This document shows positions 7,651 through 54,764 of a stretch of DNA of 64,000 bases, in pieces. This DNA comes from Pisolithus tinctorius (Eukaryota; Basidiomycota; Agaricomycetes; Boletales; Pisolithaceae): contig JANFAH010000037.1 of NCBI GenBank assembly GCA_024663395.1, positions 62,001 to 126,000 of the forward strand. The letters are read 5' to 3'. The notes beneath the pieces were generated by a model. The model was not told where the DNA came from. It did not search any database and worked only from the letters and a program-made list of their open reading frames with translations. A program made the position numbers and the translations under genes. Position 1 is the stretch's first letter, and every line of letters starts with the position of its first letter.

Positions 7651-7657
7651 CAGTAAT

Positions 7658-17883: not shown

Positions 17884-17998
17884 GCTGGTATGCACACAAT
17901 TAATAGCGTTGGCAACGGCGAAGGGTCCAGGCGGTGATTAGTCAGCATTGCGCGTCACGAAAAATAATGAGCGCGTCTGAACCAAAACAACGACAACA
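17884..17998. promoter_or_regulatory. Shared SPC1 / SNF2-helicase promoter region
   Basis: Only 115 bp separate two divergent start codons (17883 minus, 17999 plus), so a bidirectional promoter or overlapping 5' regions is implied. No TATA box is evident. Confidence 0.5.
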
Positions 17999-24615: not shown

Positions 24616-24978
24616 GAGGAGGCCATTGCCAAAATTTCAGATATTTGTGTGTACACTTGGTTGTGCTCCTATCATTTCTTCTTCTTGTACATGTGCTTGC
24701 TCACTACTCACTACGTATACCCAAAAAGTCTTGCGTGATCGAATGAAACTTCACATGTTAGCTTGTTTGCATTTCTTCTATGTACTATCGTGTACTACTA
24801 CTGTACTGACTCTAACATCTGGGACTCAAAATACATGACAATCCTCTTCCGACCATATTACGCTGACGGTGTCGTTAGTGATTATCGTTTTCAGTGACTT
24901 TCGCTCAAGTAGGGCCTGTGCGGGTCGAGAACGGTTACATAAACTGCCTCCTGAAGGTCTGATATCGCACGCAGGTGA
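24616..24978. other. Intergenic, ending at retrotransposon copy 1
   Basis: No gene seen. The last five bases, GGTGA (24974-24978), are one half of a split target-site duplication. Its partner is TCACC at 42791-42795 on the same strand, the reverse complement. Confidence 0.7.
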
Positions 24979-25268
24979 TGTAATGGCGATGCGAAGTTAT
25001 AAGACTTGCAACGACACCACACCAGGATTCTTCTTAAATACTACTCGTTTCCAGAGTGAAAGGTCTGTTTGATTCGAGGTAGAAAAAGAGAGTCCCCGTA
25101 CAGTACGCTACATAGGCCATTTTATAGGTTAGAGAGCAGGCACGAAATATGTCAGAGTACTGCTACGGGTAAAGTAGGATCAAGAAACAAATGAGATGAT
25201 AAGTAAGACTGTCATAGAGAATTCACCATCTGAACAAACGGTCGACAGCGTCGGACCGAATCCTTACA
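24979..25268 (-). repeat. Copy 1 3' LTR, 290 bp
   Basis: Reads TGTAAGGATTCGG to CGCCATTACA on the minus strand. It appears identical to the other LTR of this copy and to those of copy 2, so insertion was recent. Confidence 0.9.
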
Positions 25269-25315
25269 TTCCCCCCTCCAGGGTACAAAGTACCCTTTCT
25301 TCGTGTAAAACTTGC

Positions 25316-28300
25316 TTACAAAGCAGCGTCCCCGGCACTTCCCGCGGTCTCGTCCTGGGGCATCGTTTCATCAACTTCACCCTCCGCATCTGCTATGCCG
25401 TCGTAATCCTCTCCGTATTCCCCTTCGTCGTCCGGGCCATCGAAGACACTGTCGACGCTTAGATGGTTAATCGTGATATGAGTATGATCGGCGAGGGTGT
25501 CGAAAGGGGGATCCATGTCTAAGGTAGAGGTCGAGGAACTAGCGACGGTGGCATTCTGACGATTATCAGCAGTGGTTTTAGGTGCCTCACGACGCCTGCT
25601 TGTACGCGAGGTCTCGTGACGTCTACTGGTCCGAGGCCTCTCTGATCCTTGTGTTCTAAACGGCGACGAGTTGGGACGATCACCCAGAGGCCCCCTTGTA
25701 CGACGATTGTCTCCTCTACGATCCCGGCGGTCCTGATAACCTCGCTGGGAGCGATCGCGCTGGCGTCTAGCCCTCTCTGCCGCGTCCCAGAGCAGGCTAT
25801 TCAATGTCTCAGTCTCTGCAGCGTTGAGTACCTGCCCGCCCTCTATCTCTTCCCTGCTACGCAGGTCAGTGTCCGCTCCCAGAACTTCCTCCCTAGTTGG
25901 GGCTGGGCCCGTGATGACAATGCGATGTCCCGTGCCAGGTTCAAGGTAAGCGAATCGCGACCTCGTAGTGGCTCTACGGTGGTAAGCTTCCCTGAACTGA
26001 CGATATCCAGCAGGGACGTCGAGGGGATCTCCCTCGTTTCGCCGCAGCGCTCTGTCGTACACGAAGAAGGACCGAATCTGCTCACGGTGAACCAAGAGTC
26101 GCTCCTCTGTCTGCCCAGGGCCGGAGTCAACCCAGATGACAAAATAATCAAAGCTAGTCCATTCAATGGAACGACTTTGGGCAGGGTTCGACATAGTGGC
26201 GGCCTGATGACGTCTCGTGTCAGGTGAGTGGTTGATAGCTAAGCTCTGTAGCTCGCTAACGATGTTGGACAGGGTGTTGTGGAGCGTCGCTAGATTTTCG
26301 GGGCTGATGACGGGTTGCCTTGCAGGCCGAGATATCAAGGGAGCGGGGTGCGATCGGCGACGTGCCCTCTTCGGGTAGGAGGCGGTTTTACGGGCGTAAC
26401 AATGACAGTGGGAGTCGCACTTGCGTCCCCTGGGCCTGGAGGTGTATAACGCTCGTGAGTTGGATCGTGTACGCAAACCTGAACGTAGGTGGGCCCGACG
26501 AGGGTGATCCGAAGGGCGGCGTGAATGGTTATAGGGACGACTCGAAGGCGCAGGAGGTCGGTTGTGTTTAGTGGAGCGATGAGGGTGGTACGGACGAGGA
26601 CGGGTCTTGGGTTGATGATTTTGAGAGCGGGAGGATCCAGCCGTAGTGGGGTGTAGGTGAGTGGATGGGGACCTCCAGTTGGGACATGAGCGATTTAAAT
26701 GGGCCCCACAGATATGCGGTGTCAAGTGTCCTATGAACACCTGGGAGTCGTTGTCCGACGAGCTCCCGTCGCTCTCGTCCCTTAAATTTTCAATCCCATC
26801 AACCCCAATGGCCTCGAAATAATCGGTAAGCGCTTTCAGGTGCGCGACCTCGTCGTAGGGTAACCACGTTCGATCTCCAGCTGTCCACTTCACTTCGAAC
26901 TTCGCGTCCGATCGGCTGCCACGATGGCTAATTATCTGGTCGACAGCCCATTCTCGGTTTGTCCCTCCGAGTTCCGGAATCTGATCGTCTTTCCGTCCAG
27001 GGAACTTTCTATCGTCATTAGGTATGTGCACCCTTAACAATGATGAATGAAACACGTCGTGAATACCTCTTTGCTTTAGGTTATCAGGTAATTCAACGCG
27101 ATAAGAATTATTCCCGAAGTCGTCCGAAATGCGGTACGGTCCAATGAATTTCGGTACGAGCTTTCGCGATGTCCCCCTTGACAAGCTAATATTCTTGGTG
27201 GAGACGTACACGAGGTCACCCGTAACAAATGGGCACACTCGGCGCTTTTTATTAGCGCCAACCACTTGTTTCAATCGTGCCTTTAGGATTGCGTCATGGG
27301 CGTCCAACAGAGTAAGTTTCATTTTATTGGCAAACGCTCTCACGCTTGGGTATTCATCTCTCGTCGGGGAGTCCCAGATCATCCGTCGAGGCATCCGTCC
27401 GGTGTTCAGGAAGAACGGTGCGTAACCAGTTGATTCCGATGTTGCGTTATTGATTGCAAACTCGATGGCAGGTAGTCGTGACACCCAGTCCTTTTGATTC
27501 GGCCCGATGCAGCATCTCAGCATCTGGGCAATGGTTCGGTTGGCGCGTTCCGTTGTGCCATCTGTTTCCGGGTGGTACGCACTCGACATTTTCTGCTTAA
27601 TCCCAATTAGCTCATTTAGGCGTTTCCAGAAGGTACTAGTGAACAGGACGTCGCGGTCGCTAATGATCGCTCGAGGTAAGCCGTGGTGTTTATACACCTC
27701 GGCGAACATTAATTCTGCTACTTCACGAGCAGTATAGGTTGTTCGGCTCGGTACGATGTGCACCATGGAAGTTAGCAAATCGATAATCACCATTATCGAG
27801 TCATACTCGCCGTCGCGGTCTTTGGACTCTGGGAGCGGTCCCACAAAGTCTACTCCAATCGATTCCCAAGGTCTGGATGGTACAGAGAGTGGGTTTAGTA
27901 GTCCGAATGGTTTGTGGGTCGGTGGCTTGCTCCGTTGGCAAGTCTGACATGATGTACAGTATGCGGTGATATCTTTCACCATAGAGTCCCACCACAGGAA
28001 TTCACGAATATATGACACCGTCTTTCTGGCGCCTAGGTGGGCGAGCAAGGAGTGGGCATGGTTGATGATGACCTCCCTAAGTCGTTTGCCGTCTACCTCA
28101 ATATCAGGTACGCAGAACACGGTGCGATCCGGGAGTTTCAGACTGATGAATCCGTCAGGCGTGATATTGAAGTTCTTGAAAGCCTGTGGGTCCTCGATGA
28201 TCCGTTTGAAGAAAGGGTCCCTATCATACTTGTGCTTAGCGGCTTTGAGTATCCCTTCGCTTCCTGGGTATACAACCAATGGTACCCTAGTCGTCGGTGC

Positions 28301-31116
28301 CCTCGTTATGTCACCTTCCGACGTGAGTTGCCCCGTGTCCGGCATAGGGATCCGCGTGTCATGCATCGTGTTTACAGCGTGTGTGTCCTCAGGTGGGGGA
28401 CGTTCACTGTCCTCATCCCCCTTCCTTCGTTCGCCTGGGCCAAGAAGAACGAAGCGATTCTTCATTCTCCTAGCAAATTCGATACCGGTTTCAGGCCAGC
28501 CAGTCTCCGCAGGCGGTGTTGGAGGGCGACGATGGCGCATGGTCACTCTCTTGGTAGCGGGCTGAGCAGGTGCGTCCTCCGTGCGTTCGCATGCGTCATC
28601 CGCACTGCTCATTGCAGCAGGCGGCTCCCCCTCCATAGGTCGCTCCTCAACGCTCGTTGGAGAGGGCATCGCCGGAGGTTTCAGCACTAATCGCAATCGG
28701 CGCACAGAGGATGGTCCCGCTGCCTTGGGCGCTTTGGGGGAGTCACTCGGCGAAGTGTCTTCCGGTTGTTTCACTGTTGCCCGCGCTTGGGACCTGGTGG
28801 ACATCGCCATCGCTTCGACGCCAACATACAAAGGTGCGCTGATGATTTGCTGACGTTCCTCCGTATTGGCAGACTCCTCAATCTCTAGGTCATGATGCAG
28901 ATATTCGCTGGGCGCACGGATAGTCCCTGGGCATCAAATTCATACATCCGAGAGAGAGCGTCCGGGAGGATGTTATCGACACCAGGTACGTGTTTGATAT
29001 CAAAGTCAAACTCGGCCAGTTTCTCTAACCAGCGTGCTTGTCTCCCAGACAGGTCTTTCTGTTCCAGCAAGTACATCAGACTCTTATGGTCGGTAACCCA
29101 CGTGAAGTGAGTGCCCTGCAGTATATCCCGGTGCCTTAACATCGTTTCCACCCCAGCAAGGAGCTCTTGCTCATGAACGGGGTAGTTACGTTGAGCTGAC
29201 GACATCTTCGCAGAGTAAAAGGCGGCTATCTTCGCGGACTTCCAGTCCTTCCCCTGTGCAATTACTCCGCCTATTCCATTTCCGCAGGCGTCGGTCATAA
29301 CCCAGATGGGTTCGCGGTCGGGACCGTACTCCAAGGGAACGCGGCTGTGACTCGCACAGGTGGCAACGTATTGTTTCACCGTTTCGAATGCTCGCTGCTC
29401 AGTAAACGTCCACCGGAAGGGACGAGTTTCGGCGCTTGCTTCTGCTAGCACACCCAAAGGTACGCGGACTTTGTAGATGTCGTCTGCCAGGTAGCCTACT
29501 GACCCAATAAATCCTTTGCATAACGTCCGGTTGGTGGGGACTTTCCAGTTGAGGATCCGATCGACCTTTTCAGGATCCATTTTTATTCCATCATCAGTGA
29601 CGACGCGACCCAGGATCTTCACTTCATCACACAAGAAACGAAGTTTCTTCTCGCTCAGGTAAAGTTTCTCTCGTGTGAGGATTTCAAGAACGAGTTTGAC
29701 GTGTCTAATGTGATCTTCCAGGGTCTCAGAGTAGATGATTATATCATCCAAGTATACGTCCATGAACGTTCCCACATATTCCCCAAAAATGTGATTCATT
29801 AGGGCTTGGTACGTCGCTGGAGCGTTGCAGTCGCCTTGCTGGACTACCAGACTGACCATATTTCCGTCTGGGGTCGTAACGGCCGTCCTTTCTACATGCT
29901 CGGGGATCACCCGAATTTGTTCGTACGCGTCGGCTCCATCAATGATCGACCTATATGGCCTCTTGGCCACTCGCCATAGGATACCATCCATATCAGGCAT
30001 CGGTGACGATAACTTGCGCGTATTCTTGTTTCGCTCGCGCAGGTCGACCACCACACGGAGTCGCGGAGGGTTCCCTGCCTTTGGTATTAGCAACATTGGG
30101 CAAGTGTTCCTTGCCGCGGTTAGTTCCCAGCGGCCGGTTTTCAAGTAGGCGTTTTTCTTTTCCGCCCAAAGAGGTCTTAACGCCTCTGGACATCTAGATG
30201 GCCGCCAAGGGTATATTTTCTTTTCATCTATCAGTGGGATCTCGTGATTTATGGCTCGGAATGGGGGAAGGGCCGTCGCTCCTACTTGGGAGCATAGAGG
30301 CTTTGCTAATTCCTGTAAGTACTTCCTTGCCTTCTCAAGGTTCTCATGGTAAACGTCCGTCGCGCGTGATTCCAGGGTTGAGACCTGCGCTCCTTTCATC
30401 TCGGTGGGCGTAACACTTCCCACAACGACTCTAGGCGAGTGTAACCCCACCATTACTTTGTGCTGATAGAGGAACGGTGTCCCTAGGATCAGATCGTAGT
30501 TTTGCAAGTTCATGACATCGAAGTATCGTTCGCAGTCAATCCCTTGATATTGGAAACGGGCCTTAGCGCCGAAGTTCACCTTGGACCGCGAGCCCTGAAC
30601 CGCGAGCTGAATGGTGAGAGGTTTCTCAAGCGAAATACGTTTCACTTTCAATTGTTCTGCAAGCGTCACTGACATGAAATCAGCCAGCGATCCCGTGTCG
30701 ATCAGCGCGCGCGCCGGGTGGCCGTTCACGTGCACGACGACCACCAGAGGCTTCGGTATCTTTCGCGTGAAATCCTTGGCTATCGAGGAATTTCTCTGTA
30801 GGGTCAACTTATCCTCATCGCGGACCTTAACGCCATTCAACTGGATCATGTCATACGGTGCGTCTTTCAACTGATCTGCGACCCCGTTGGTTTCATCATT
30901 TCCAGCGCTCTTGAATAGTGCGCAGATCCCCGGGTCTTCTTCCTCCAGGGGGTCACTGCTCGTTAAGGCTACACACGCGCGAAACAGCCTCTTAGCATGC
31001 CAATGCACGACGTCGAAGTCTGGCCTGGAAATCCTTTCCAGCGGGAGGACCAGGCGGGCCGCCAGGTGATAGTCAAGTACGTCGATTGTCGTCTTATCTT
31101 CCCTAACACACGCAAA
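25316..31116 (-). pseudogene. Copy 1 pol, frameshifted
   Basis: The reading frame follows a UGA at 31117-31119 and carries protease, reverse transcriptase and RNase H as in copy 2. A run of four C in copy 2 (48400-48403) is three C here (minus strand of 28929-28931). This 1-bp deletion shifts the frame after YEFDA and stops pol at 28885, just after RNase H. A second open frame (28831 to 25316) still encodes integrase, chromodomain and the long C-terminal extension, but it is cut off from reverse transcriptase. Products would lack integrase. Confidence 0.9.
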
Positions 31117-34110
31117 TCATCCTGAGTTTCCCCCTTCCAGCATTTGAAGACTGTGCTCCTCGAGCTTAGCGATAATGCAGTCCTCAATAGGGCGTCCCAT
31201 GGGGTTTGATCTCCAGGTCCGCGCGCGCTCTTGGCGTCTCAGTTCCGTTTTCGGGATACCAGCGCGTTCTCCCTTTCGAAACCAGTACCAACTATCAAGT
31301 CGGAAAGCAGGGTTCATTAGCAGGTGCATTTCGACTGTAATCTCGTCTCCTGGGCCTAATACATCTCGTTCGCTTTCCACAATCATGTGTCGGCCATCCA
31401 TCAGATCATAGACCAGGAATCGGGAGTCCATATAAGTGCGCAACGAGTTCGGGTCATCGCCGGGGTAGCAGATCCCGGATAGTCGTTCCATGGCCCTGTC
31501 CTCCAGGGGGTGCCCTAGTTTTGTGCCCACCCACCAGATTCCACGGGCCTGGTTGCTCCTATAGGCGTAGACATGTATTCCGTCATTCGGGGCTTCTTCT
31601 TCGGGAATGGTACTATCGCTAGTTCGGTAGTCTTCGTCGTCTGAGACGCTCTCCAGGTCTGGGAGATCATCATCAGGTACGCCATCATCTTCCTGGATCG
31701 TAGGCCCTCGAGCCTGAATGAAGTTCAAGGATACCTCAGGGCCGTGCCTAGACGAACTCGCCAACTGACGTTGGCACTCAATATCTCCGAAGTCGACACC
31801 CACACCAAAACTCGTAATGCCTGAGGACTTGCCGGCATTGAGCACGGTCTGACGATCAGGACAATTCCTCGAGAAATGCCCCGACTTATGGCAGATGAAG
31901 CATAGGCCCTCCGCCTTATGTCGTTCTTGCTCTTCTTTGCTTAGTTTAGGGGCATCACGCTTCCGCCTGTCCGGACGTCTGGTGCGTTTCCCTCCCAGGG
32001 TGTGATTATCGGGCGTAGCGGCTTCCTTTCGATAGCCTTCGCCCTTAAATCTCCTCTTCCTTTCGCGTCTTCGCTTGTGTCCTGACTTGTGAGGTTCGGG
32101 ATTCTCTGGTGACGCGGCCGCACTTCCCACCGCCCTATGCTTACTCCTTCGTCGCTTAGATCTACGAGTATAGTCACCAGCGACAGTCTGGGCGATTTCG
32201 AGGATCTCAGCGGATGCCGAGATCTTCTTTAGTGATGAGATCTCCGGGTTCAATTTTTCTTTCCATAGGTCTCGTTGGAGCTCCTTTCGGAGTCCCGACC
32301 AGAACTTGTGCACCTTAGTGCGTTCGTCGGTCTCCCCGATCATGTTCCATAGCTCGTTGAGCTCGTACAGGTAGTTTTTTACCGTTTTAGAGTTCTGATA
32401 ACATGATTGTAGTTTCTCTCTTTGCCGCATTCGGAAATCAATGGGGAAACAATAATTGAATAGTTGCGTAAAGAAATCCGAGAGTCTCCACTTGTAAGGA
32501 TCCCCTGAGACTTCCCGCACGTAAAACTCATGTGCCTTACCCGTCAGGTAGTGGGATAGGATGAACGCACACTTCTTGGGTTCGACTCGACCGTCTGTAA
32601 CATACGCGGCCCCTTCGGTAACGAACCGTTGAAAGGCGTGTACGTCGTCGGACCCATCGTACTTATTCGGCGGGATGGGCTTAAGAGTCGTCCTGCGACG
32701 AGATTTCGAACGCTTCTTGGATTTGCGTTTCTTTCCCTTACCACTCTTGCGGCGTCGGGATCTACCACGTCGGTGGTTCGAGCTGCTTGACGACCCACCC
32801 AAGCTTAACGATGATTCACTGGTTGTCGAAGAAGAATCATCATCGCTCGTGTCAGAATAGCTGGATGGATCACTACTGGAGTTTGACGATATGGAGTCGT
32901 CATTCGAGCTCTCGCTCGTGGTAGATGCAGACTCGGACGAGCTGGTATCGTCGTCACTTGATGAATCTGAGGTGTGCTTCGCCTTCCTTTTATTTTTGGA
33001 TCTTTTGGAGCGCTTCTCATCCTTTTCAAGGCGCTTAAAGGCGAGTCCAATGTAGCTTTTTGGATTGATTTGTTTTACAGGCTCCATAGCCCTCGGCGTC
33101 TTCTGTCGTTCACGCCTCTTGTGATCTTGACGGACGACTTTATCAACCATCTCCTTTATCGGGTTTGGGGGTTCTCTCGAGGGTTTGGTCTCCCTCTTCT
33201 TGTTTTTCTTCGAACGCTTTAGCTTACTCCTCTTAGGAATCCGCTCATCTTCCCCGCCATGCGGTTCTGGGAGTTCGTCCTCAGTGGGTTGTGCGGTGCC
33301 CTCCGGATCGTTCCCCTTTGACGGTCCGGGTTGGTCACCATCGCTCTCATTTGCCAATCTATTAGCGGCATTCCACAATGCAAGGGCTGCGCGTTGCGCG
33401 TCTGGGTCTATCTCATTCTCGCTAAGTTTCAGGTTCCCCCAATTCCTAGGATCGGGTCCCTTTCCCTTGCCTTCACCCTTAGCGGAGGGCTCATCACTTT
33501 CTGACGAGGTCACTTCAGGGTTATCCCTCGTCATCGACAACGACCTCCTCCGGATTTTCTCTCGTTCATCCAGGGTCAGTTGCCGTTCCGCCCTTCAGAC
33601 GGCATTTGTCTGGTCTGGCCTTAACATGCTGTGGGCTCGTCGCTCATGCGACTTCTTACGCACCACCTCTGTCCAGTCGTTTTGCTCCGCTTCCATATCA
33701 CTCGTTGGGAAGATGGATAAAGAGTCGCAGTGGACATTATCAGGTAAGACGTTGTTCGTACTATGAGTCACTACTCGGACTCTAACAGTACGAGCCTGTG
33801 AGGCCTCCGGGACTCCAATGTCACCGGGATACACCGGCGAGCTAGTCCTCAAGCCGGGAACGTCAACGGTAGCACCTTGGGGCACTGGACTAGGGCTCCT
33901 CGAGCCAGACCTTACCACATCGCTATAACTCCGGATGTTACTAGCGGCGGTTTTTTCAATTGGGGTAGAGTACTGACTCCCGAGCGGGGTCAGCTTCGGT
34001 AGAGGGGACACACCAACGATCTCAGCGCCAGGCTGAGTCGTTGGGCTTTGGGGTAGGGATGAAGCTCGAGCGCGGGTGCCTCGGCGTGCAGTAGAACGGG
34101 TATTAACCAT
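31117..34110 (-). pseudogene. Copy 1 gag with premature stop
   Basis: It starts MVNTRSTARRG at 34110. Codon 172 is TGA (33595-33597) where copy 2 has CGA (43734-43736), a CpG to TpG change. The frame is open again downstream to the natural UGA at 31117-31119. The rest matches copy 2 gag, including the Ser/Asp-rich and Arg/Lys-rich tracts and the CCHC zinc knuckle. Confidence 0.9.
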
Positions 34111-34245
34111 TTCTTTTTGTTAAGTGTCTTCGGATACTTACTCGAGTGTCGACAGGGGATCAGCCTGCGGATGGTTGAGAAGGTATCGAAGGGGTTTGTT
34201 TAGAGTTCGAGTTTTCTTTTGACCGTTTGGGACAGGAAAAAAATA

Positions 34246-34535
34246 TGTAATGGCGATGCGAAGTTATAAGACTTGCAACGACACCACACCAGGATTCTTC
34301 TTAAATACTACTCGTTTCCAGAGTGAAAGGTCTGTTTGATTCGAGGTAGAAAAAGAGAGTCCCCGTACAGTACGCTACATAGGCCATTTTATAGGTTAGA
34401 GAGCAGGCACGAAATATGTCAGAGTACTGCTACGGGTAAAGTAGGATCAAGAAACAAATGAGATGATAAGTAAGACTGTCATAGAGAATTCACCATCTGA
34501 ACAAACGGTCGACAGCGTCGGACCGAATCCTTACA
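34246..34535 (-). repeat. Copy 1 5' LTR, 290 bp
   Basis: Holds the promoter, including a TATAAAA on the minus strand. It is followed on the right by GCAGT (34536-34540), the reverse complement of the ACTGC that follows copy 2. Confidence 0.9.
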
Positions 34536-36618
34536 GCAGTACGGGTATGTTTGGCCTGGTTTGTCTCATCGTCTTTTTCATCCGCAACGACCCTCTCGGC
34601 CCGGATCAGTACGACGCCAATGATGCCAACTGCAATCTGACAATGGGGTAACATTATTACTTGCAAAGAAGCCCGAAGGATCTCCAGTATGGCAAACCTG
34701 ATGTCTGGCAGCTCCATCCTTCGCCGAATTGCAGGATTCTGCCAGATGCTGCATCAGTACTCGCTGCGAGAAAGCTGAATTACGGGCACAAGAGTCATAC
34801 GCACAAATAGACGACGTGATCCTAAAGATATCGTACACCAAATTTCGTCCCACACACATATGACATCAGGATGATTTTCGGAACGATGAAACAGTTGAGA
34901 CGCACCTACGTTGCAAGTCCAACCAGAGCGAGGGCAAGCAATCATTTGAAAGTTCCCTGGTTGACGAATGACACTTCGACGACTTCCGCCCCCCACGTTC
35001 CCTTTGCGCCTCAGGCGGTCGTCAGGCCGAACCTATGTTCCTGGACGCTTTCCCTCGTCAGGTGCTAGAAAACGGTTTGTCGTTTGGGACTTTGCAGGGC
35101 CGGTTGGACAGCCAGACCAGTCACTTGACTGATGGAGTGTGGACGTCATTTTATTTCCCTTCGTGACCCCACCCCTCAAACCTCTTCCTGATGGTAGTAC
35201 CCGTGTCACCTGATTATAGACATCACCGACGCAGGTGGTGGATTCAACTTTGCGTACGACTTTCCTCGGCGCGAATATACGTTCGGGCGCGTAGCTTCGC
35301 AGAATGACATCGATCATAGATTGAACATTGACGCTCTTCGTTTATTCATCATCACAGACATTTGTTAAACTTCGTCTAATCTGCACTTCTGCTCGATATA
35401 ATCTCTTCCGCAGCAAGGTACTTTCTACATGACTTCCATTTCCTTCATGTTCCTCCATGTGACGTCCACTCAACGTCCACTGGCCATCCAGAGGTGCCTG
35501 GAGGTTACATAAGCAAGTCGGTTGCGACTTTCGTGTCCCGACAACTTTTTCAATTTCACTTCTGACCTACACCTCATCCTTTCGCACACAGAGCGAGGAT
35601 GCAAGCATGAAAGTTCAGGTGAGGCTACAGTCAAACTAACGAAGAAAGCACAGACATTCCGTGTCTACTTGTCTGCTAAAAACCATATTGTTAAAGCGTC
35701 GGGTGATCAACAGATCTTCCTTCTTCCATACGTGGAGAACATGGTCTAATCTCGATGTTCAGTGCACAGACTGGTGTCACGGATGTTATCTTTTGCTCAA
35801 GTTTGATGGCATGTATCATCATTCTTTGAATATTTTGGATCGGGTATAGCCATTTGATGGCGCACTGCTGGCTTTTGAACTTGATTCTACGGTCGGCGTT
35901 GAGCGTTAATTACACATGTGACGTATCTTTGTCACTGTCATACCTGGGTCACTGATAGGAGTCTCCCGAGCGCAGTCAAGTCCACCAGCGGACATCGGCA
36001 AATCCTGAATTTCCAGTTATATGTACTGGAAATCAACGCCTCAGAGTCCGAACACACCGTGATCTCCGTTACACTGTTTCAAACCTCTCCAATTCCTTTC
36101 ATGTTTAGCTGCGAATCACGGTTCCAGGTTATTATACCGAAGACACTTGTTCTAGCCGCCTCTGCGACTACATGAAACACCGCGGTGATTTTTCCACGTT
36201 CTTTGCATATTTGGCCGCTTCAGAGCGCGAAGATACTCTACCAGTTATTGTGATTGCCGTTCGGCTGCCACATGGATTCGTTCCCTTCTTGGCTTGGTAA
36301 GTGAAAGTTTTCTGAGAGGACCACAGGATCCACGACCAAAACAATATTAGCGTCAGCCCGGATATGCACCGTGTCTCATCGCAGTTCCTGTTGAACGATC
36401 CTTCAGATTTGTAAGTAACGTCTGTCGGAAATGTAAACACTACAGCTTGGCCAAATATCGCCGGCATCCTTTCCCCTGTCCTGAGCCTGGTTGTCACGGC
36501 CTCAGACAAGTGTCGATTATAAAATAGTCGTCGCGCTGAAATTTGAATCTTTGTGAGCCCTCTCCTTGTGTTCATCTTCTCGAAGGAACTTTGTAGGTTC
36601 TCGACGCATATAATTTTT
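34536..36618. other. Left part of the inverted segment, no supported gene
   Basis: Short frames only. A minus-strand frame starting MELPDIRFAILEIL (ATG near 34717) runs into the retrotransposon edge. In the pre-inversion order it would continue into 52354 onwards (KTSSKAIWRRFLRC then stop). It has one hydrophobic stretch but no recognised domain. Confidence 0.35.
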
Positions 36619-42451: not shown

Positions 42452-42795
42452 ATAGATAGTCGTTTGACGGAATAAGGTAGTAACTACGAGCTGAGAGAGC
42501 ACAAATTAGACGCTCACCCAACCTTGAACTGAATGTGTTCCCAAAGCAGTGAGGTATACCGTTGGACGGGTCTATCTCCATCAGTCAGGGTCTGGATTTG
42601 TCAGAGCTGCGTGCCTCGTATAATCTTTCTTCCTTATCTCTACGCTCCGGTGGAGACGGCCAAAGTTGGTCGTGTGAACCACTCCCAGCTTATCGCTGCA
42701 TTCTTGACAATGCAATAGCAACCCGCGGTTACGAGGCGGTGTGTGTGGGAGGCCGTTGGCTGTCAAGTTACATACTTTACATACAGTAGATCACC
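42452..42795. other. Permease upstream region up to copy 2
   Basis: Only 344 bp separate the permease start from the 5' LTR of copy 2, so the retrotransposon end may influence its promoter. The last five bases are TCACC. Confidence 0.5.
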
Positions 42796-43085
42796 TGTAA
42801 GGATTCGGTCCGACGCTGTCGACCGTTTGTTCAGATGGTGAATTCTCTATGACAGTCTTACTTATCATCTCATTTGTTTCTTGATCCTACTTTACCCGTA
42901 GCAGTACTCTGACATATTTCGTGCCTGCTCTCTAACCTATAAAATGGCCTATGTAGCGTACTGTACGGGGACTCTCTTTTTCTACCTCGAATCAAACAGA
43001 CCTTTCACTCTGGAAACGAGTAGTATTTAAGAAGAATCCTGGTGTGGTGTCGTTGCAAGTCTTATAACTTCGCATCGCCATTACA
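42796..43085 (+). repeat. Copy 2 5' LTR, 290 bp
   Basis: TG...CA ends. TATAAAA is at 42938-42944. The sequence just after it (43086 onward, TATTTTTTTCCTGTCCC) does not start with TGG, so no standard tRNA primer-binding site is seen. Confidence 0.9.
42938..42944 (+). promoter_or_regulatory. TATA box in the 5' LTR
   Basis: TATAAAA within the LTR, the probable core promoter for the retrotransposon RNA. The same motif is at about 52206 in the 3' LTR. Confidence 0.6.
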
Positions 43086-43220
43086 TATTTTTTTCCTGTC
43101 CCAAACGGTCAAAAGAAAACTCGAACTCTAAACAAACCCCTTCGATACCTTCTCAACCATCCGCAGGCTGATCCCCTGTCGACACTCGAGTAAGTATCCG
43201 AAGACACTTAACAAAAAGAA

Positions 43221-46214
43221 ATGGTTAATACCCGTTCTACTGCACGCCGAGGCACCCGCGCTCGAGCTTCATCCCTACCCCAAAGCCCAACGACTCAGCC
43301 TGGCGCTGAGATCGTTGGTGTGTCCCCTCTACCGAAGCTGACCCCGCTCGGGAGTCAGTACTCTACCCCAATTGAAAAAACCGCCGCTAGTAACATCCGG
43401 AGTTATAGCGATGTGGTAAGGTCTGGCTCGAGGAGCCCTAGTCCGGTACCCCAAGGTGCTACCGTTGACGTTCCCGGCTTGAGGACTAGCTCGCCGGTGT
43501 ATCCCGGTGACATTGGAGTCCCGGAGGCCTCACAGGCTCGTACTGTTAGAGTCCGAGTAGCGACTCATAGTACGAACAACGTCTTACCTGATAATGTCCA
43601 CTGCGACTCTTTATCCATCTTCCCAACGAGTGATATGGAAGCGGAGCAAAACGACTGGACAGAGGTGGTGCGTAAGAAGTCGCATGAGCGACGAGCCCAC
43701 AGCATGTTAAGGCCAGACCAGACAAATGCCGTCCGAAGGGCGGAACGGCAACTGACCCTGGATGAACGAGAGAAAATCCGGAGGAGGTCGTTGTCGATGA
43801 CGAGGGATAACCCTGAAGTGACCTCGTCAGAAAGTGATGAGCCCTCCGCTAAGGGTGAAGGCAAGGGAAAGGGACCCGATCCTAGGAATTGGGGGAACCT
43901 GAAACTTAGCGAGAATGAGATAGACCCAGACGCGCAACGCGCAGCCCTTGCATTGTGGAATGCCGCTAATAGATTGGCAAATGAGAGCGATGGTGACCAA
44001 CCCGGACCGTCAAAGGGGAACGATCCGGAGGGCACCGCACAACCCACTGAGGACGAACTCCCAGAACCGCATGGCGGGGAAGATGAGCGGATTCCTAAGA
44101 GGAGTAAGCTAAAGCGTTCGAAGAAAAACAAGAAGAGGGAGACCAAACCCTCGAGAGAACCCCCAAACCCGATAAAGGAGATGGTTGATAAAGTCGTCCG
44201 TCAAGATCACAAGAGGCGTGAACGACAGAAGACGCCGAGGGCTATGGAGCCTGTAAAACAAATCAATCCAAAAAGCTACATTGGACTCGCCTTTAAGCGC
44301 CTTGAAAAGGATGAGAAGCGCTCCAAAAGATCCAAAAATAAAAGGAAGGCGAAGCACACCTCAGATTCATCAAGTGACGACGATACCAGCTCGTCCGAGT
44401 CTGCATCTACCACGAGCGAGAGCTCGAATGACGACTCCATATCGTCAAACTCCAGTAGTGATCCATCCAGCTATTCTGACACGAGCGATGATGATTCTTC
44501 TTCGACAACCAGTGAATCATCGTTAAGCTTGGGTGGGTCGTCAAGCAGCTCGAACCACCGACGTGGTAGATCCCGACGCCGCAAGAGTGGTAAGGGAAAG
44601 AAACGCAAATCCAAGAAGCGTTCGAAATCTCGTCGCAGGACGACTCTTAAGCCCATCCCGCCGAATAAGTACGATGGGTCCGACGACGTACACGCCTTTC
44701 AACGGTTCGTTACCGAAGGGGCCGCGTATGTTACAGACGGTCGAGTCGAACCCAAGAAGTGTGCGTTCATCCTATCCCACTACCTGACGGGTAAGGCACA
44801 TGAGTTTTACGTGCGGGAAGTCTCAGGGGATCCTTACAAGTGGAGACTCTCGGATTTCTTTACGCAACTATTCAATTATTGTTTCCCCATTGATTTCCGA
44901 ATGCGGCAAAGAGAGAAACTACAATCATGTTATCAGAACTCTAAAACGGTAAAAAACTACCTGTACGAGCTCAACGAGCTATGGAACATGATCGGGGAGA
45001 CCGACGAACGCACTAAGGTGCACAAGTTCTGGTCGGGACTCCGAAAGGAGCTCCAACGAGACCTATGGAAAGAAAAATTGAACCCGGAGATCTCATCACT
45101 AAAGAAGATCTCGGCATCCGCTGAGATCCTCGAAATCGCCCAGACTGTCGCTGGTGACTATACTCGTAGATCTAAGCGACGAAGGAGTAAGCATAGGGCG
45201 GTGGGAAGTGCGGCCGCGTCACCAGAGAATCCCGAACCTCACAAGTCAGGACACAAGCGAAGACGCGAAAGGAAGAGGAGATTTAAGGGCGAAGGCTATC
45301 GAAAGGAAGCCGCTACGCCCGATAATCACACCCTGGGAGGGAAACGCACCAGACGTCCGGACAGGCGGAAGCGTGATGCCCCTAAACTAAGCAAAGAAGA
45401 GCAAGAACGACATAAGGCGGAGGGCCTATGCTTCATCTGCCATAAGTCGGGGCATTTCTCGAGGAATTGTCCTGATCGTCAGACCGTGCTCAATGCCGGC
45501 AAGTCCTCAGGCATTACGAGTTTTGGTGTGGGTGTCGACTTCGGAGATATTGAGTGCCAACGTCAGTTGGCGAGTTCGTCTAGGCACGGCCCTGAGGTAT
45601 CCTTGAACTTCATTCAGGCTCGAGGGCCTACGATCCAGGAAGATGATGGCGTACCTGATGATGATCTCCCAGACCTGGAGAGCGTCTCAGACGACGAAGA
45701 CTACCGAACTAGTGATAGTACCATTCCCGAAGAAGAAGCCCCGAATGACGGAATACATGTCTACGCCTATAGGAGCAACCAGGCCCGTGGAATCTGGTGG
45801 GTGGGCACAAAACTAGGGCACCCCCTGGAGGACAGGGCCATGGAACGACTATCCGGGATCTGCTACCCCGGCGATGACCCGAACTCGTTGCGCACTTATA
45901 TGGACTCCCGATTCCTGGTCTATGATCTGATGGATGGCCGACACATGATTGTGGAAAGCGAACGAGATGTATTAGGCCCAGGAGACGAGATTACAGTCGA
46001 AACGCACCTGCTAATGAACCCTGCTTTCCGACTTGATAGTTGGTACTGGTTTCGAAAGGGAGAACGCGCTGGTATCCCGAAAACGGAACTGAGACGCCAA
46101 GAGCGCGCGCGGACCTGGAGATCAAACCCCATGGGACGCCCTATTGAGGACTGCATTATCGCTAAGCTCGAGGAGCACAGTCTTCAAATGCTGGAAGGGG
46201 GAAACTCAGGATGA
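43221..46214 (+). CDS. gag: Copy 2 Gag polyprotein, 997 residues
   Basis: Starts MVNTRSTARRG at 43221, 135 bp after the LTR. The middle has a long Ser/Asp/Thr tract (about residues 375-445) followed by a Lys/Arg tract (SRRRKSGKGKKRKSKK). The Retrotrans_gag-like region is at about 489-616 (VHAFQRFVTEGAAYV, SHYLTGKAHEFY, FNYCFPIDFR, FWSGLRKELQRDL). The CCHC zinc knuckle CFICHKSGHFSRNC is at about 737-750. An acidic tail leads to a UGA at 46212-46214. Gag forms virus-like particles that package the RNA. At almost 1000 residues it is long for a gypsy Gag, mainly because of the low-complexity tracts and the roughly 250 residues after the knuckle. Confidence 0.93.
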   Translation: MVNTRSTARRGTRARASSLPQSPTTQPGAEIVGVSPLPKLTPLGSQYSTPIEKTAASNIRSYSDVVRSGSRSPSPVPQGATVDVPGLRTSSPVYPGDIGVPEASQARTVRVRVATHSTNNVLPDNVHCDSLSIFPTSDMEAEQNDWTEVVRKKSHERRAHSMLRPDQTNAVRRAERQLTLDEREKIRRRSLSMTRDNPEVTSSESDEPSAKGEGKGKGPDPRNWGNLKLSENEIDPDAQRAALALWNAANRLANESDGDQPGPSKGNDPEGTAQPTEDELPEPHGGEDERIPKRSKLKRSKKNKKRETKPSREPPNPIKEMVDKVVRQDHKRRERQKTPRAMEPVKQINPKSYIGLAFKRLEKDEKRSKRSKNKRKAKHTSDSSSDDDTSSSESASTTSESSNDDSISSNSSSDPSSYSDTSDDDSSSTTSESSLSLGGSSSSSNHRRGRSRRRKSGKGKKRKSKKRSKSRRRTTLKPIPPNKYDGSDDVHAFQRFVTEGAAYVTDGRVEPKKCAFILSHYLTGKAHEFYVREVSGDPYKWRLSDFFTQLFNYCFPIDFRMRQREKLQSCYQNSKTVKNYLYELNELWNMIGETDERTKVHKFWSGLRKELQRDLWKEKLNPEISSLKKISASAEILEIAQTVAGDYTRRSKRRRSKHRAVGSAAASPENPEPHKSGHKRRRERKRRFKGEGYRKEAATPDNHTLGGKRTRRPDRRKRDAPKLSKEEQERHKAEGLCFICHKSGHFSRNCPDRQTVLNAGKSSGITSFGVGVDFGDIECQRQLASSSRHGPEVSLNFIQARGPTIQEDDGVPDDDLPDLESVSDDEDYRTSDSTIPEEEAPNDGIHVYAYRSNQARGIWWVGTKLGHPLEDRAMERLSGICYPGDDPNSLRTYMDSRFLVYDLMDGRHMIVESERDVLGPGDEITVETHLLMNPAFRLDSWYWFRKGERAGIPKTELRRQERARTWRSNPMGRPIEDCIIAKLEEHSLQMLEGGNSG

Positions 46215-49200
46215 TTTGCGTGTGTTAGGGAAGATAAGACGACAATCGACGTACTTGACTATCACCTGGCGGCCCGCCTGGTCCTCCCGCTGGAAAGGAT
46301 TTCCAGGCCAGACTTCGACGTCGTGCATTGGCATGCTAAGAGGCTGTTTCGCGCGTGTGTAGCCTTAACGAGCAGTGACCCCCTGGAGGAAGAAGACCCG
46401 GGGATCTGCGCACTATTCAAGAGCGCTGGAAATGATGAAACCAACGGGGTCGCAGATCAGTTGAAAGACGCACCGTATGACATGATCCAGTTGAATGGCG
46501 TTAAGGTCCGCGATGAGGATAAGTTGACCCTACAGAGAAATTCCTCGATAGCCAAGGATTTCACGCAAAAGATACCGAAGCCTCTGGTGGTCGTCGTGCA
46601 CGTGAACGGCCACCCGGCGCGCGCGCTGATCGACACGGGATCGCTGGCTGATTTCATGTCAGTGACGCTTGCAGAACAATTGAAAGTGAAACGTATTTCG
46701 CTTGAGAAACCTCTCACCATTCAGCTCGCGGTTCAGGGCTCGCGGTCCAAGGTGAACTTCGGCGCTAAGGCCCGTTTCCAATATCAAGGGATTGACTGCG
46801 AACGATACTTCGATGTCATGAACTTGCAAAACTACGATCTGATCCTAGGGACACCGTTCCTCTATCAGCACAAAGTAATGGTGGGGTTACACTCGCCTAG
46901 AGTCGTTGTGGGAAGTGTTACGCCCACCGAGATGAAAGGAGCGCAGGTCTCAACCCTGGAATCACGCGCGACGGACGTTTACCATGAGAACCTTGAGAAG
47001 GCAAGGAAGTACTTACAGGAATTAGCAAAGCCTCTATGCTCCCAAGTAGGAGCGACGGCCCTTCCCCCATTCCGAGCCATAAATCACGAGATCCCACTGA
47101 TAGATGAAAAGAAAATATACCCTTGGCGGCCATCTAGATGTCCAGAGGCGTTAAGACCTCTTTGGGCGGAAAAGAAAAACGCCTACTTGAAAACCGGCCG
47201 CTGGGAACTAACCGCGGCAAGGAACACTTGCCCAATGTTGCTAATACCAAAGGCAGGGAACCCTCCGCGACTCCGTGTGGTGGTCGACCTGCGCGAGCGA
47301 AACAAGAATACGCGCAAGTTATCGTCACCGATGCCTGATATGGATGGTATCCTATGGCGAGTGGCCAAGAGGCCATATAGGTCGATCATTGATGGAGCCG
47401 ACGCGTACGAACAAATTCGGGTGATCCCCGAGCATGTAGAAAGGACGGCCGTTACGACCCCAGACGGAAATATGGTCAGTCTGGTAGTCCAGCAAGGCGA
47501 CTGCAACGCTCCAGCGACGTACCAAGCCCTAATGAATCACATTTTTGGGGAATATGTGGGAACGTTCATGGACGTATACTTGGATGATATAATCATCTAC
47601 TCTGAGACCCTGGAAGATCACATTAGACACGTCAAACTCGTTCTTGAAATCCTCACACGAGAGAAACTTTACCTGAGCGAGAAGAAACTTCGTTTCTTGT
47701 GTGATGAAGTGAAGATCCTGGGTCGCGTCGTCACTGATGATGGAATAAAAATGGATCCTGAAAAGGTCGATCGGATCCTCAACTGGAAAGTCCCCACCAA
47801 CCGGACGTTATGCAAAGGATTTATTGGGTCAGTAGGCTACCTGGCAGACGACATCTACAAAGTCCGCGTACCTTTGGGTGTGCTAGCAGAAGCAAGCGCC
47901 GAAACTCGTCCCTTCCGGTGGACGTTTACTGAGCAGCGAGCATTCGAAACGGTGAAACAATACGTTGCCACCTGTGCGAGTCACAGCCGCGTTCCCTTGG
48001 AGTACGGTCCCGACCGCGAACCCATCTGGGTTATGACCGACGCCTGCGGAAATGGAATAGGCGGAGTAATTGCACAGGGGAAGGACTGGAAGTCCGCGAA
48101 GATAGCCGCCTTTTACTCTGCGAAGATGTCGTCAGCTCAACGTAACTACCCCGTTCATGAGCAAGAGCTCCTTGCTGGGGTGGAAACGATGTTAAGGCAC
48201 CGGGATATACTGCAGGGCACTCACTTCACGTGGGTTACCGACCATAAGAGTCTGATGTACTTGCTGGAACAGAAAGACCTGTCTGGGAGACAAGCACGCT
48301 GGTTAGAGAAACTGGCCGAGTTTGACTTTGATATCAAACACGTACCTGGTGTCGATAACATCCTCCCGGACGCTCTCTCTCGGATGTATGAATTTGATGC
48401 CCCAGGGACTATCCGTGCGCCCAGCGAATATCTGCATCATGACCTAGAGATTGAGGAGTCTGCCAATACGGAGGAACGTCAGCAAATCATCAGCGCACCT
48501 TTGTATGTTGGCGTCGAAGCGATGGCGATGTCCACCAGGTCCCAAGCGCGGGCAACAGTGAAACAACCGGAAGACACTTCGCCGAGTGACTCCCCCAAAG
48601 CGCCCAAGGCAGCGGGACCATCCTCTGTGCGCCGATTGCGATTAGTGCTGAAACCTCCGGCGATGCCCTCTCCAACGAGCGTTGAGGAGCGACCTATGGA
48701 GGGGGAGCCGCCTGCTGCAATGAGCAGTGCGGATGACGCATGCGAACGCACGGAGGACGCACCTGCTCAGCCCGCTACCAAGAGAGTGACCATGCGCCAT
48801 CGTCGCCCTCCAACACCGCCTGCGGAGACTGGCTGGCCTGAAACCGGTATCGAATTTGCTAGGAGAATGAAGAATCGCTTCGTTCTTCTTGGCCCAGGCG
48901 AACGAAGGAAGGGGGATGAGGACAGTGAACGTCCCCCACCTGAGGACACACACGCTGTAAACACGATGCATGACACGCGGATCCCTATGCCGGACACGGG
49001 GCAACTCACGTCGGAAGGTGACATAACGAGGGCACCGACGACTAGGGTACCATTGGTTGTATACCCAGGAAGCGAAGGGATACTCAAAGCCGCTAAGCAC
49101 AAGTATGATAGGGACCCTTTCTTCAAACGGATCATCGAGGACCCACAGGCTTTCAAGAACTTCAATATCACGCCTGACGGATTCATCAGTCTGAAACTCC

Positions 49201-52016
49201 CGGATCGCACCGTGTTCTGCGTACCTGATATTGAGGTAGACGGCAAACGACTTAGGGAGGTCATCATCAACCATGCCCACTCCTTGCTCGCCCACCTAGG
49301 CGCCAGAAAGACGGTGTCATATATTCGTGAATTCCTGTGGTGGGACTCTATGGTGAAAGATATCACCGCATACTGTACATCATGTCAGACTTGCCAACGG
49401 AGCAAGCCACCGACCCACAAACCATTCGGACTACTAAACCCACTCTCTGTACCATCCAGACCTTGGGAATCGATTGGAGTAGACTTTGTGGGACCGCTCC
49501 CAGAGTCCAAAGACCGCGACGGCGAGTATGACTCGATAATGGTGATTATCGATTTGCTAACTTCCATGGTGCACATCGTACCGAGCCGAACAACCTATAC
49601 TGCTCGTGAAGTAGCAGAATTAATGTTCGCCGAGGTGTATAAACACCACGGCTTACCTCGAGCGATCATTAGCGACCGCGACGTCCTGTTCACTAGTACC
49701 TTCTGGAAACGCCTAAATGAGCTAATTGGGATTAAGCAGAAAATGTCGAGTGCGTACCACCCGGAAACAGATGGCACAACGGAACGCGCCAACCGAACCA
49801 TTGCCCAGATGCTGAGATGCTGCATCGGGCCGAATCAAAAGGACTGGGTGTCACGACTACCTGCCATCGAGTTTGCAATCAATAACGCAACATCGGAATC
49901 AACTGGTTACGCACCGTTCTTCCTGAACACCGGACGGATGCCTCGACGGATGATCTGGGACTCCCCGACGAGAGATGAATACCCAAGCGTGAGAGCGTTT
50001 GCCAATAAAATGAAACTTACTCTGTTGGACGCCCATGACGCAATCCTAAAGGCACGATTGAAACAAGTGGTTGGCGCTAATAAAAAGCGCCGAGTGTGCC
50101 CATTTGTTACGGGTGACCTCGTGTACGTCTCCACCAAGAATATTAGCTTGTCAAGGGGGACATCGCGAAAGCTCGTACCGAAATTCATTGGACCGTACCG
50201 CATTTCGGACGACTTCGGGAATAATTCTTATCGCGTTGAATTACCTGATAACCTAAAGCAAAGAGGTATTCACGACGTGTTTCATTCATCATTGTTAAGG
50301 GTGCACATACCTAATGACGATAGAAAGTTCCCTGGACGGAAAGACGATCAGATTCCGGAACTCGGAGGGACAAACCGAGAATGGGCTGTCGACCAGATAA
50401 TTAGCCATCGTGGCAGCCGATCGGACGCGAAGTTCGAAGTGAAGTGGACAGCTGGAGATCGAACGTGGTTACCCTACGACGAGGTCGCGCACCTGAAAGC
50501 GCTTACCGATTATTTCGAGGCCATTGGGGTTGATGGGATTGAAAATTTAAGGGACGAGAGCGACGGGAGCTCGTCGGACAACGACTCCCAGGTGTTCATA
50601 GGACACTTGACACCGCATATCTGTGGGGCCCATTTAAATCGCTCATGTCCCAACTGGAGGTCCCCATCCACTCACCTACACCCCACTACGGCTGGATCCT
50701 CCCGCTCTCAAAATCATCAACCCAAGACCCGTCCTCGTCCGTACCACCCTCATCGCTCCACTAAACACAACCGACCTCCTGCGCCTTCGAGTCGTCCCTA
50801 TAACCATTCACGCCGCCCTTCGGATCACCCTCGTCGGGCCCACCTACGTTCAGGTTTGCGTACACGATCCAACTCACGAGCGTTATACACCTCCAGGCCC
50901 AGGGGACGCAAGTGCGACTCCCACTGTCATTGTTACGCCCGTAAAACCGCCTCCTACCCGAAGAGGGCACGTCGCCGATCGCACCCCGCTCCCTTGATAT
51001 CTCGGCCTGCAAGGCAACCCGTCATCAGCCCCGAAAATCTAGCGACGCTCCACAACACCCTGTCCAACATCGTTAGCGAGCTACAGAGCTTAGCTATCAA
51101 CCACTCACCTGACACGAGACGTCATCAGGCCGCCACTATGTCGAACCCTGCCCAAAGTCATTCCATTGAATGGACTAGCTTTGATTATTTTGTCATCTGG
51201 GTTGACTCCGGCCCTGGGCAGACAGAGGAGCGACTCTTGGTTCACCGTGAGCAGATTCGGTCCTTCTTCGTGTACGACAGAGCGCTGCGGCGAAACGAGG
51301 GAGATCCCCTTGACGTCCCTGCTGGATATCGTCAGTTCAGGGAAGCTTACCACCGTAGAGCCACTACGAGGTCGCGATTCGCTTACCTTGAACCTGGCAC
51401 GGGACATCGCATTGTCATCACGGGCCCAGCCCCAACTAGGGAGGAAGTTCTGGGAGCGGACGCTGACCTGCGTAGCAGGGAAGAGATAGAGGGCGGGCAG
51501 GTACTCAACGCTGCAGAGACTGAGACATTGAATAGCCTGCTCTGGGACGCGGCAGAGAGGGCTAGACGCCAGCGCGATCGCTCCCAGCGAGGTTATCAGG
51601 ACCGCCGGGATTGTAGAGGAGACAATCGTCGTACAAGGGGGCCTCTGGGTGATCGTCCCAACTCGTCGCCGTTTAGAACACAAGGATCAGAGAGGCCTCG
51701 GACCAGTAGACGTCGCGAGACCTCGCGTACAAGCAGGCGTCGCGAGGCACCTAAAACCACTGCTGATAATCGTCAGAATGCCACCGTCGCTAGTTCCTCG
51801 ACCTCTACCTTAGACATGGATCCCCCTTTCGACACCCTCGCCGATCATACTCATATCACGATTAACCATCTAAGCGTCGACAGTGTCTTCGATGGCCCGG
51901 ACGACGAAGGGGAATACGGAGAGGATTACGACGGCATAGCAGATGCGGAGGGTGAAGTTGATGAAACGATGCCCCAGGACGAGACCGCGGGAAGTGCCGG
52001 GGACGCTGCTTTGTAA
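46215..52016 (+). CDS. pol: Copy 2 Pol: protease, RT, RNase H, integrase, chromodomain and extension
   Basis: In the same frame as gag and open immediately after its UGA. The first ATG is 36 codons later at 46323. Counting from that ATG: aspartic protease ALIDTGSLADF near 100; reverse transcriptase with MDVYLDDIIIYS near 419; RNase H with TDACGNGIGG near 571; integrase zinc finger (H-x-H ... CTSCQTC) near 980-1020; integrase D, D, E in GVDFVG, SDRD and TERAN near 1052, 1116 and 1152; chromodomain (FEVKWTAGDRTWLPYDE) near 1352-1404. A further 490 residues follow, first Pro/Arg/Ser/His-rich, then a more globular part beginning MSNPAQSHSIEW. The stop lies 47 bp before the 3' LTR. Confidence 0.93.
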   Translation, partial: FACVREDKTTIDVLDYHLAARLVLPLERISRPDFDVVHWHAKRLFRACVALTSSDPLEEEDPGICALFKSAGNDETNGVADQLKDAPYDMIQLNGVKVRDEDKLTLQRNSSIAKDFTQKIPKPLVVVVHVNGHPARALIDTGSLADFMSVTLAEQLKVKRISLEKPLTIQLAVQGSRSKVNFGAKARFQYQGIDCERYFDVMNLQNYDLILGTPFLYQHKVMVGLHSPRVVVGSVTPTEMKGAQVSTLESRATDVYHENLEKARKYLQELAKPLCSQVGATALPPFRAINHEIPLIDEKKIYPWRPSRCPEALRPLWAEKKNAYLKTGRWELTAARNTCPMLLIPKAGNPPRLRVVVDLRERNKNTRKLSSPMPDMDGILWRVAKRPYRSIIDGADAYEQIRVIPEHVERTAVTTPDGNMVSLVVQQGDCNAPATYQALMNHIFGEYVGTFMDVYLDDIIIYSETLEDHIRHVKLVLEILTREKLYLSEKKLRFLCDEVKILGRVVTDDGIKMDPEKVDRILNWKVPTNRTLCKGFIGSVGYLADDIYKVRVPLGVLAEASAETRPFRWTFTEQRAFETVKQYVATCASHSRVPLEYGPDREPIWVMTDACGNGIGGVIAQGKDWKSAKIAAFYSAKMSSAQRNYPVHEQELLAGVETMLRHRDILQGTHFTWVTDHKSLMYLLEQKDLSGRQARWLEKLAEFDFDIKHVPGVDNILPDALSRMYEFDAPGTIRAPSEYLHHDLEIEESANTEERQQIISAPLYVGVEAMAMSTRSQARATVKQPEDTSPSDSPKAPKAAGPSSVRRLRLVLKPPAMPSPTSVEERPMEGEPPAAMSSADDACERTEDAPAQPATKRVTMRHRRPPTPPAETGWPETGIEFARRMKNRFVLLGPGERRKGDEDSERPPPEDTHAVNTMHDTRIPMPDTGQLTSEGDITRAPTTRVPLVVYPGSEGILKAAKHKYDRDPFFKRIIEDPQAFKNFNITPDGFISLKLPDRTVFCVPDIEVDGKRLREVIINHAHSLLAHLGARKTVSYIREFLWWDSMVKDITAYCTSCQTCQRSKPPTHKPFGLLNPLSVPSRPWESIGVDFVGPLPESKDRDGEYDSIMVIIDLLTSMVHIVPSRTTYTAREVAELMFAEVYKHHGLPRAIISDRDVLFTSTFWKRLNELIGIKQKMSSAYHPETDGTTERANRTIAQMLRCCIGPNQKDWVSRLPAIEFAINNATSESTGYAPFFLNTGRMPRRMIWDSPTRDEYPSVRAFANKMKLTLLDAHDAILKARLKQVVGANKKRRVCPFVTGDLVYVSTKNISLSRGTSRKLVPKFIGPYRISDDFGNNSYRVELPDNLKQRGIHDVFHSSLLRVHIPNDDRKFPGRKDDQIPELGGTNREWAVDQIISHRGSRSDAKFEVKWTAGDRTWLPYDEVAHLKALTDYFEAIGVDGIENLRDESDGSSSDNDSQVFIGHLTPHICGAHLNRSCPNWRSPSTHLHPTTAGSSRSQNHQPKTRPRPYHPHRSTKHNRPPAPSSRPYNHSRRPSDHPRRAHLRSGLRTRSNSRALYTSRPRGRKCDSHCHCYARKTASYPKRARRRSHPAPLISRPARQPVISPENLATLHNTLSNIVSELQSLAINHSPDTRRHQAATMSNPAQSHSIEWTSFDYFVIWVDSGPGQTEERLLVHREQIRSFFVYDRALRRNEGDPLDVPAGYRQFREAYHRRATTRSRFAYLEPGTGHRIVITGPAPTREEVLGADADLRSREEIEGGQVLNAAETETLNSLLWDAAERARRQRDRSQRGYQDRRDCRGDNRRTRGPLGDRPNSSPFRTQGSERPRTSRRRETSRTSRRREAPKTTADNRQNATVASSSTSTLDMDPPFDTLADHTHITINHLSVDSVFDGPDDEGEYGEDYDGIADAEGEVDETMPQDETAGSAGDAAL

Positions 52017-52052
52017 GCAAGTTTTACACGAAGAAAGGGTACTTTGTACCCT

Positions 52053-52063
52053 GGAGGGGGGAA
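52053..52063 (+). other. Polypurine tract of copy 2
   Basis: GGAGGGGGGAA immediately before the 3' LTR, the primer site for plus-strand DNA synthesis. Confidence 0.85.
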
Positions 52064-52353
52064 TGTAAGGATTCGGTCCGACGCTGTCGACCGTTTGTTC
52101 AGATGGTGAATTCTCTATGACAGTCTTACTTATCATCTCATTTGTTTCTTGATCCTACTTTACCCGTAGCAGTACTCTGACATATTTCGTGCCTGCTCTC
52201 TAACCTATAAAATGGCCTATGTAGCGTACTGTACGGGGACTCTCTTTTTCTACCTCGAATCAAACAGACCTTTCACTCTGGAAACGAGTAGTATTTAAGA
52301 AGAATCCTGGTGTGGTGTCGTTGCAAGTCTTATAACTTCGCATCGCCATTACA
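52064..52353 (+). repeat. Copy 2 3' LTR, 290 bp
   Basis: Appears identical to the 5' LTR. Followed by ACTGC (52354-52358), whose partner is at the far side of the inverted segment. Confidence 0.9.
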
Positions 52354-52358
52354 ACTGC

Positions 52359-53600: not shown

Positions 53601-53611
53601 ACGGATATTCT

Positions 53612-54747: not shown

Positions 54748-54760
54748 AAAAAAATTAAAA
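54748..54760 (-). terminator. RNA polymerase III terminator of tRNA-Gln
   Basis: On the minus strand TTTT, then a run of seven T, follows 4 nt after the tRNA 3' end. Confidence 0.7.
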
Positions 54761-54764
54761 GTAA

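Follow-up and report, generated by a model that had tools for sequence, protein, structure and literature searches.

Two oppositely oriented retrotransposons around a gene-bearing block

The window, the whole 64,000-nucleotide stretch of Pisolithus tinctorius DNA analysed here, corresponds to positions 62001-126000 of contig C37 in an assembly of 92.5 Mb and 221 contigs, and has a G+C content of 50%. It contains two mutually inverted copies of one LTR retrotransposon with a gene-bearing block between them (Table 1). The copies, of 9,557 bp (copy 1) and 9,558 bp (copy 2), are separated by 13 substitutions and a single 1-base indel (99.85% identity), and their four 290-bp LTRs, which start with TG, end with CA and are accompanied by a 5-bp duplication, are identical. 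Each of the 13 substitutions is a transition, and by our reading 12 fall in a CpG context. Transitions falling mostly at CpG sites are the pattern expected from the decay of methylated CpG.

In copy 1, the gag match lies within the minus-strand frame 31120-33594; after it, protease, reverse transcriptase and RNase H share one frame, and the integrase is in the next. The integrase frame comprises a zinc-binding domain, a core and a Tf2-1-like SH3 domain, the match to the core (20.9 bits) being under the Pfam cut-off of 32.6. Since the coding strands of the two copies point in opposite directions, both would be transcribed away from the block, with their 5' LTRs facing it.

Table 1. Features of the window (positions counted from its first nucleotide)
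Feature	Position	Strand	Remarks
Left outer flank, weak spot of the assembly	17800..24978	.	deletion-ridden consensus, genuine haplotype differences
Left flank of copy 1, GGTGA	24974..24978	+	partner TCACC 42791-42795; single copy in C16 empty site
Copy 1, Ty3-type LTR retrotransposon	24979..34535	coding strand -	5' LTR adjoins block
Copy 1, distal LTR (3' LTR in coding sense)	24979..25268	-	same as other three LTRs over 290 bp
Copy 1, block-side LTR (5' LTR in coding sense)	34246..34535	-	
Block read as inverted, 8,260 bp	34536..42795	.	C16 homologue runs the other way with respect to both outer flanks
Right flank of copy 1, GCAGT	34536..34540	+	partner ACTGC 52354-52358
Terpene synthase exons (Terpene_syn_C_2, PF19086)	37050..37734	+	Pfam E 2.8e-28 and 7.2e-13
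Amino-acid permease exons (AA_permease_2, PF13520)	41248..42074	-	Pfam E 5e-7 and 5.5e-6
Left flank of copy 2, TCACC	42791..42795	-	reverse complement of GGTGA
Copy 2, Ty3-type LTR retrotransposon	42796..52353	coding strand +	opposite to copy 1
Right flank of copy 2, ACTGC	52354..52358	+	reverse complement of GCAGT; single copy in C16 empty site

The two genes that the original prediction had read in the block, a terpene synthase and a permease, are both represented by exons with Pfam matches. For the terpene synthase, the best of 43 solved relatives is 7ofl (E 2.6e-39 over 97 residues), and a further, upstream exon probably lies in the open frame 36547-37011, which has no Pfam match. The weaker of the two permease matches (E 5.5e-6) is just below the Pfam cut-off, and the first exons of this gene are probably located between 42074 and 42795. 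Among the frames scanned, namely 10 of the 13 block frames of at least 100 codons and 10 chosen flank frames, no Pfam-matching frame abuts an insertion site. As the permease frame ends 0.7 kb from the end of the block, the region upstream of this gene is the one most likely to be affected.

Exchanged target-site duplications

Copy 1 lies between GGTGA and GCAGT, and copy 2 between TCACC and ACTGC. These four 5-mers and both element boundaries are as originally described: neither copy has a direct duplication of its own, and each 5-mer has its reverse complement beside the other copy. The estimate that two independent 5-mers would match by chance about once in a million also stands, given equal base frequencies and a window with 50% G+C.

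All other copies of the family with pairable ends are bordered by direct 5-bp duplications (17/17; 16 exact and one with one transition), and exchanged or unrelated flanking 5-mers were found at none of these 17. The swapped pattern is thus limited to copies 1 and 2 among the 19 copies tested. Ends were taken from two genome searches and paired by contig, strand and order, not by duplication; some paired ends are 17-46 kb apart, presumably on account of nested inserts. At least five places without pairable full ends (on C1, C16, C29 near 188.6 kb, C61 and C75) were left out of the control, and the number of family copies is a lower bound, the best 40 candidates having been scored in each search. 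Together with the domain order, these duplications confirm from sequence that the elements are of the Ty3 type and generate 5-bp duplications, as had been proposed.

The 17 control copies represent 16 independent sites, since the insertions at C91:65715 and C32:508153 are allelic, with flank and duplication common to both contigs. Over the first 1.5 kb the C91 copy is 99% and the C32 copy 96% identical to copy 1, and one of the two allelic copies seems to be more decayed.

An allele with neither insertion

Three queries were run against the genome, namely the flank outside copy 1 (20000-24978), the block itself (34536-42795) and the flank outside copy 2 (52354-57500), scoring the best 40 of 259 candidates for the block and 2/2 and 6/6 for the flanks. 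Among the matches listed, C16:1258520-1292628 is the sole other lengthy match for all three. Pieces longer than 1 kb are 96-98% identical between C37 and C16, and two shorter ones 93-94%. On C16 the order is left flank, GGTGA, reversed block, ACTGC, right flank, with no element and one copy of the 5-mer at each join. The GGTGA join unites the left flank with the reverse of the block's right end, the ACTGC join unites the reverse of the block's left end with the right flank, and the flank and block matches overlap by exactly these 5-mers.

Turning the block round in C37 would restore the C16 order; the inverted order occurs, among the matches listed in the same searches (best 40 of 259 for the block, 2/2 and 6/6 for the flanks), in C37 only. 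Because C16 has single targets and C37 has exchanged pairs, the C16 order is the ancestral one here. The original prediction, which had named an uninserted allele as one of the comparisons to make and held that inverting the block would repair both duplications, is thereby borne out: C16 shows both predicted empty sites, the block reversed, and the order that had been taken as ancestral.

The C16 allele has insertions of its own. A 15.1-kb insert inside the block (C16:1268513-1283639, at window ~38820), absent from C37, carries, close to either end, inverted repeats of ~437 bp (94%), contains a transposase frame of the tnp2 type (PF02992), and is situated downstream of the terpene synthase exons. 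In the right flank, a 515-bp insert of the same family as copies 1 and 2 (C16:1263395-1263909, at window ~52671) is located ~0.3 kb from the copy-2 site. It consists of a full LTR and the 11 bases that normally follow the 5' LTR, joined to LTR positions 1-221 in inverted orientation; this inverted piece shares the last five of the 11 bases, TTTCC, and the whole insert is bordered by a perfect 5-bp duplication, GCCAA. Its structure resembles that of a snap-back reverse-transcription product, with a U3 end on either side, that became integrated. A short dispersed repeat at window ~38000-38135, with dozens of genome matches at ~70-96%, is present in extra copies at that place on C16.

From window position 1 to ~17900, the two contigs are nearly identical, with five substitutions in the first 18 kb. 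This tract (C37 ~58970 to 79900, an extent given without the sequence of C37:60001-62000) is bordered on its left by sequence of ~97% identity and on its right by sequence with ~0.9% substitutions up to copy 1; it could reflect a local loss of heterozygosity or an effect of the assembly. Within it are an inverted repeat pair of ~650 bp and 98% identity (178-828 and 2305-2955), found on C16 too and possibly the ends of another element, and a tandem array with a unit of ~78 bp, ~90% alike (7646-8408).

Age and kinship of the two copies

Substitutions separate the haplotypes at 2.6% (88/3,375) and 2.9% (116/3,974) of aligned columns in the block's two large pieces, compared with 0.14% between copy 1 and copy 2 and 0/290 differences between the LTRs of each copy. 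Both insertions therefore probably took place much later than the separation of the haplotypes. Elements this young, as dated by their sequence, fit insertions confined to one haplotype, and the inversion would be younger still if it came after both insertions.

Ten of the 13 sites at which the copies differ, in element positions 602-1222 and 8601-8931, were compared with five other copies; three mid-element substitutions are left out of this chimera test. Seven of the ten are private CpG changes, four or five of which are assigned to copy 1 and the rest to copy 2 (611, 639, 892, 8619 and 8908 for copy 1; 742 and 1043 for copy 2), and one is a non-CpG change private to copy 2. The other two are CpG changes each common with one other copy, copy 2 with the C10 copy and copy 1 with the C91 copy. 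As these two shared sites could reflect either ancestry or repeat mutation, they do not place a crossover point. In the pieces compared, two further derived sites are common to copies 1 and 2 only, among seven copies, indicating that the two are close kin.

A probable inversion and its alternatives

We consider it probable, reading from the assembly sequence, that the 8,260-bp block was truly inverted on the C37 haplotype. According to this model, the host is a heterozygous, probably dikaryotic fungus, in which one of two haplotypes would have received two copies of a single Ty3-type element, oppositely oriented and 8.26 kb from each other, each insertion making a 5-bp duplication (GGTGA and ACTGC). 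Genome size, the presence of two haplotypes in one assembly, the terpene synthase and the transposon families would point to such a host. Homologous recombination between the near-identical inverted copies would then have turned the block, exchanging one side of each duplication; the other haplotype, represented by C16, lacks both insertions and retains the old order. Three marks of such an event are present: opposite homologous copies at both breakpoints, exchanged duplications, and single targets on the uninverted chromosome. The substrate would be 9.56 kb of inverted homology at 99.85% identity. The model supposes that the exchange happened in the organism, inside the elements and after both had inserted; ectopic crossing-over is the simplest mechanism that would do this.

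The same exchanged duplications would arise, exactly, if the assembler had switched between the copies inside the repeat. According to this explanation the ancestral order, with both elements in place, is the real one, and the block was turned only on paper. We regard it as unlikely, though it has points in its favour: the repeat measures 9.56 kb at 99.85% identity, its copies are 8.26 kb apart, and they are the most alike pair seen in the family. It is opposed by the control, in which the assembly passes through each of the 17 other pairable copies and finds its duplications in agreement. Since five of these match copy 1 at 99% identity across its first 1.5 kb, elements of such length were in general resolved by the data.

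The consensus immediately to the left of copy 1 is of poor quality, which fits a misjoin without proving one. In window 18.0-25.0 kb, 69 of the 76 gaps of 1-2 bases relative to C16 are deletions on the C37 side (73 of 80 when the gaps of 16.7-25.0 kb are listed one by one). Elsewhere among the stretches compared, C37 deletions of this kind number at most 4 per 2-kb bin, counting alignments of at least 1 kb at 95% identity or more. With such gaps, the zone resembles raw long-read sequence that was insufficiently polished; read support for the left join may be thin, or reads may have mapped ambiguously there. Against an artefact, the block and right flank of C37 are free of any such excess. Transitions outnumber transversions relative to C16 by 49:14 in the left flank, 66:22 and 90:26 in the block pieces, and 48:19 in the right-flank stretch 54624-58019; since the bias is the same throughout, none of these C37 stretches was copied from C16. 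The idea that the poor left zone is a bad duplicate of C16 was likewise rejected, its 63 substitutions showing the usual bias, which marks the zone as sequence of the second haplotype.

Alternatively, the exchange might have taken place at integration, two cDNAs each bridging both targets while the block was cut free and turned. The identity of the four LTRs, and the two derived sites that copies 1 and 2 share against five other copies, accord with this scenario, and the elements may have inserted at about the same time and from a similar source. In concerted integration, both ends of one cDNA normally enter one site. Two coordinated two-site integrations would be needed here, whereas recombination requires only homology already present, and we hold this alternative to be very improbable. 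That C16 was rearranged and C37 keeps the old order is barely credible: with two alleles only, the polarity rests on the duplications, but an ancestral C37 should show direct duplications and does not, and the joins on C16 carry each 5-mer once and no element.

Implications and comparison with known systems

If the inversion is real, and reads agree, this locus would be a clear-cut example of fungal DNA inverted through LTR retrotransposons, with the footprint and the uninserted allele found in one genome. It would also mean that recent insertions make haplotypes differ in gene order around a probable secondary-metabolism gene. The case further suggests that mismatched duplications might be used to flag inversions, or assembly errors, automatically in long-read assemblies.

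With the young inverted elements in mind, one may speculate that they act as a live, nucleus-limited toggle, which keeps flipping the block in the growing mycelium. According to this speculation, one haplotype would occur in either orientation, and the terpene synthase and the permease would come to lie by turns beside one or the other set of neighbours and retrotransposon promoters. We think this improbable, even if the homology seen in the sequence makes renewed flipping possible in principle. In the nearest yeast case, the flip/flop of Saccharomyces chromosome XIV, a 24-kb region lies between 4.2-kb inverted repeats, and orientation changes were reported 0 times in ~53,800 mitoses and 950 meioses (PMC9731477). 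Given this stability, as reported there, frequent flipping is not to be assumed. The two systems share a gene-bearing block between near-identical inverted repeats and the occurrence of two orientations; the Saccharomyces repeats, however, belong to a host sporulation gene family and are not mobile elements, and that polymorphism is described as conserved among species (PMC9731477).

Among fungi, inversions between two compatible monokaryons of Phlebopus portentosus have been ascribed to transposon activity, one of them altering a terpene cluster (PMC12411881). As in our case, a structural difference between fungal haplotypes involves terpene genes and transposons, but the inversions there are ascribed to DNA transposons, and the parts of that report drawn upon here make no mention of exchanged duplications (PMC12411881). 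In the fairy-ring mushroom, 63 transposon-related variants include one inversion and thirteen deletions, with some of the deletions attributed to recombination between copies (PMC9674265). Inversions are also reported among the differences between the nuclei of a dikaryotic rust, where transposons are enriched at such differences (PMC12129025).

A close precedent for the proposed ectopic crossing-over is found in Drosophila buzzatii, where the Galileo transposon made inversion 2z3 (PMC2775673). There, as here, opposite copies are described at both breakpoints, with exchanged duplications and with single targets on the uninverted chromosome (PMC2775673). Galileo is reported as a cut-and-paste transposon with 7-bp duplications and visibly chimeric copies (PMC2775673), whereas the Pisolithus pair are LTR retrotransposons that make 5-bp duplications, the block measures just 8.26 kb, and chimeric copies were not demonstrated at the 10 of 13 sites compared, seven of them private CpG changes. 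The mechanism is thus already known, and the present locus, if the block was truly inverted, is a further case of transposon-mediated inversion.
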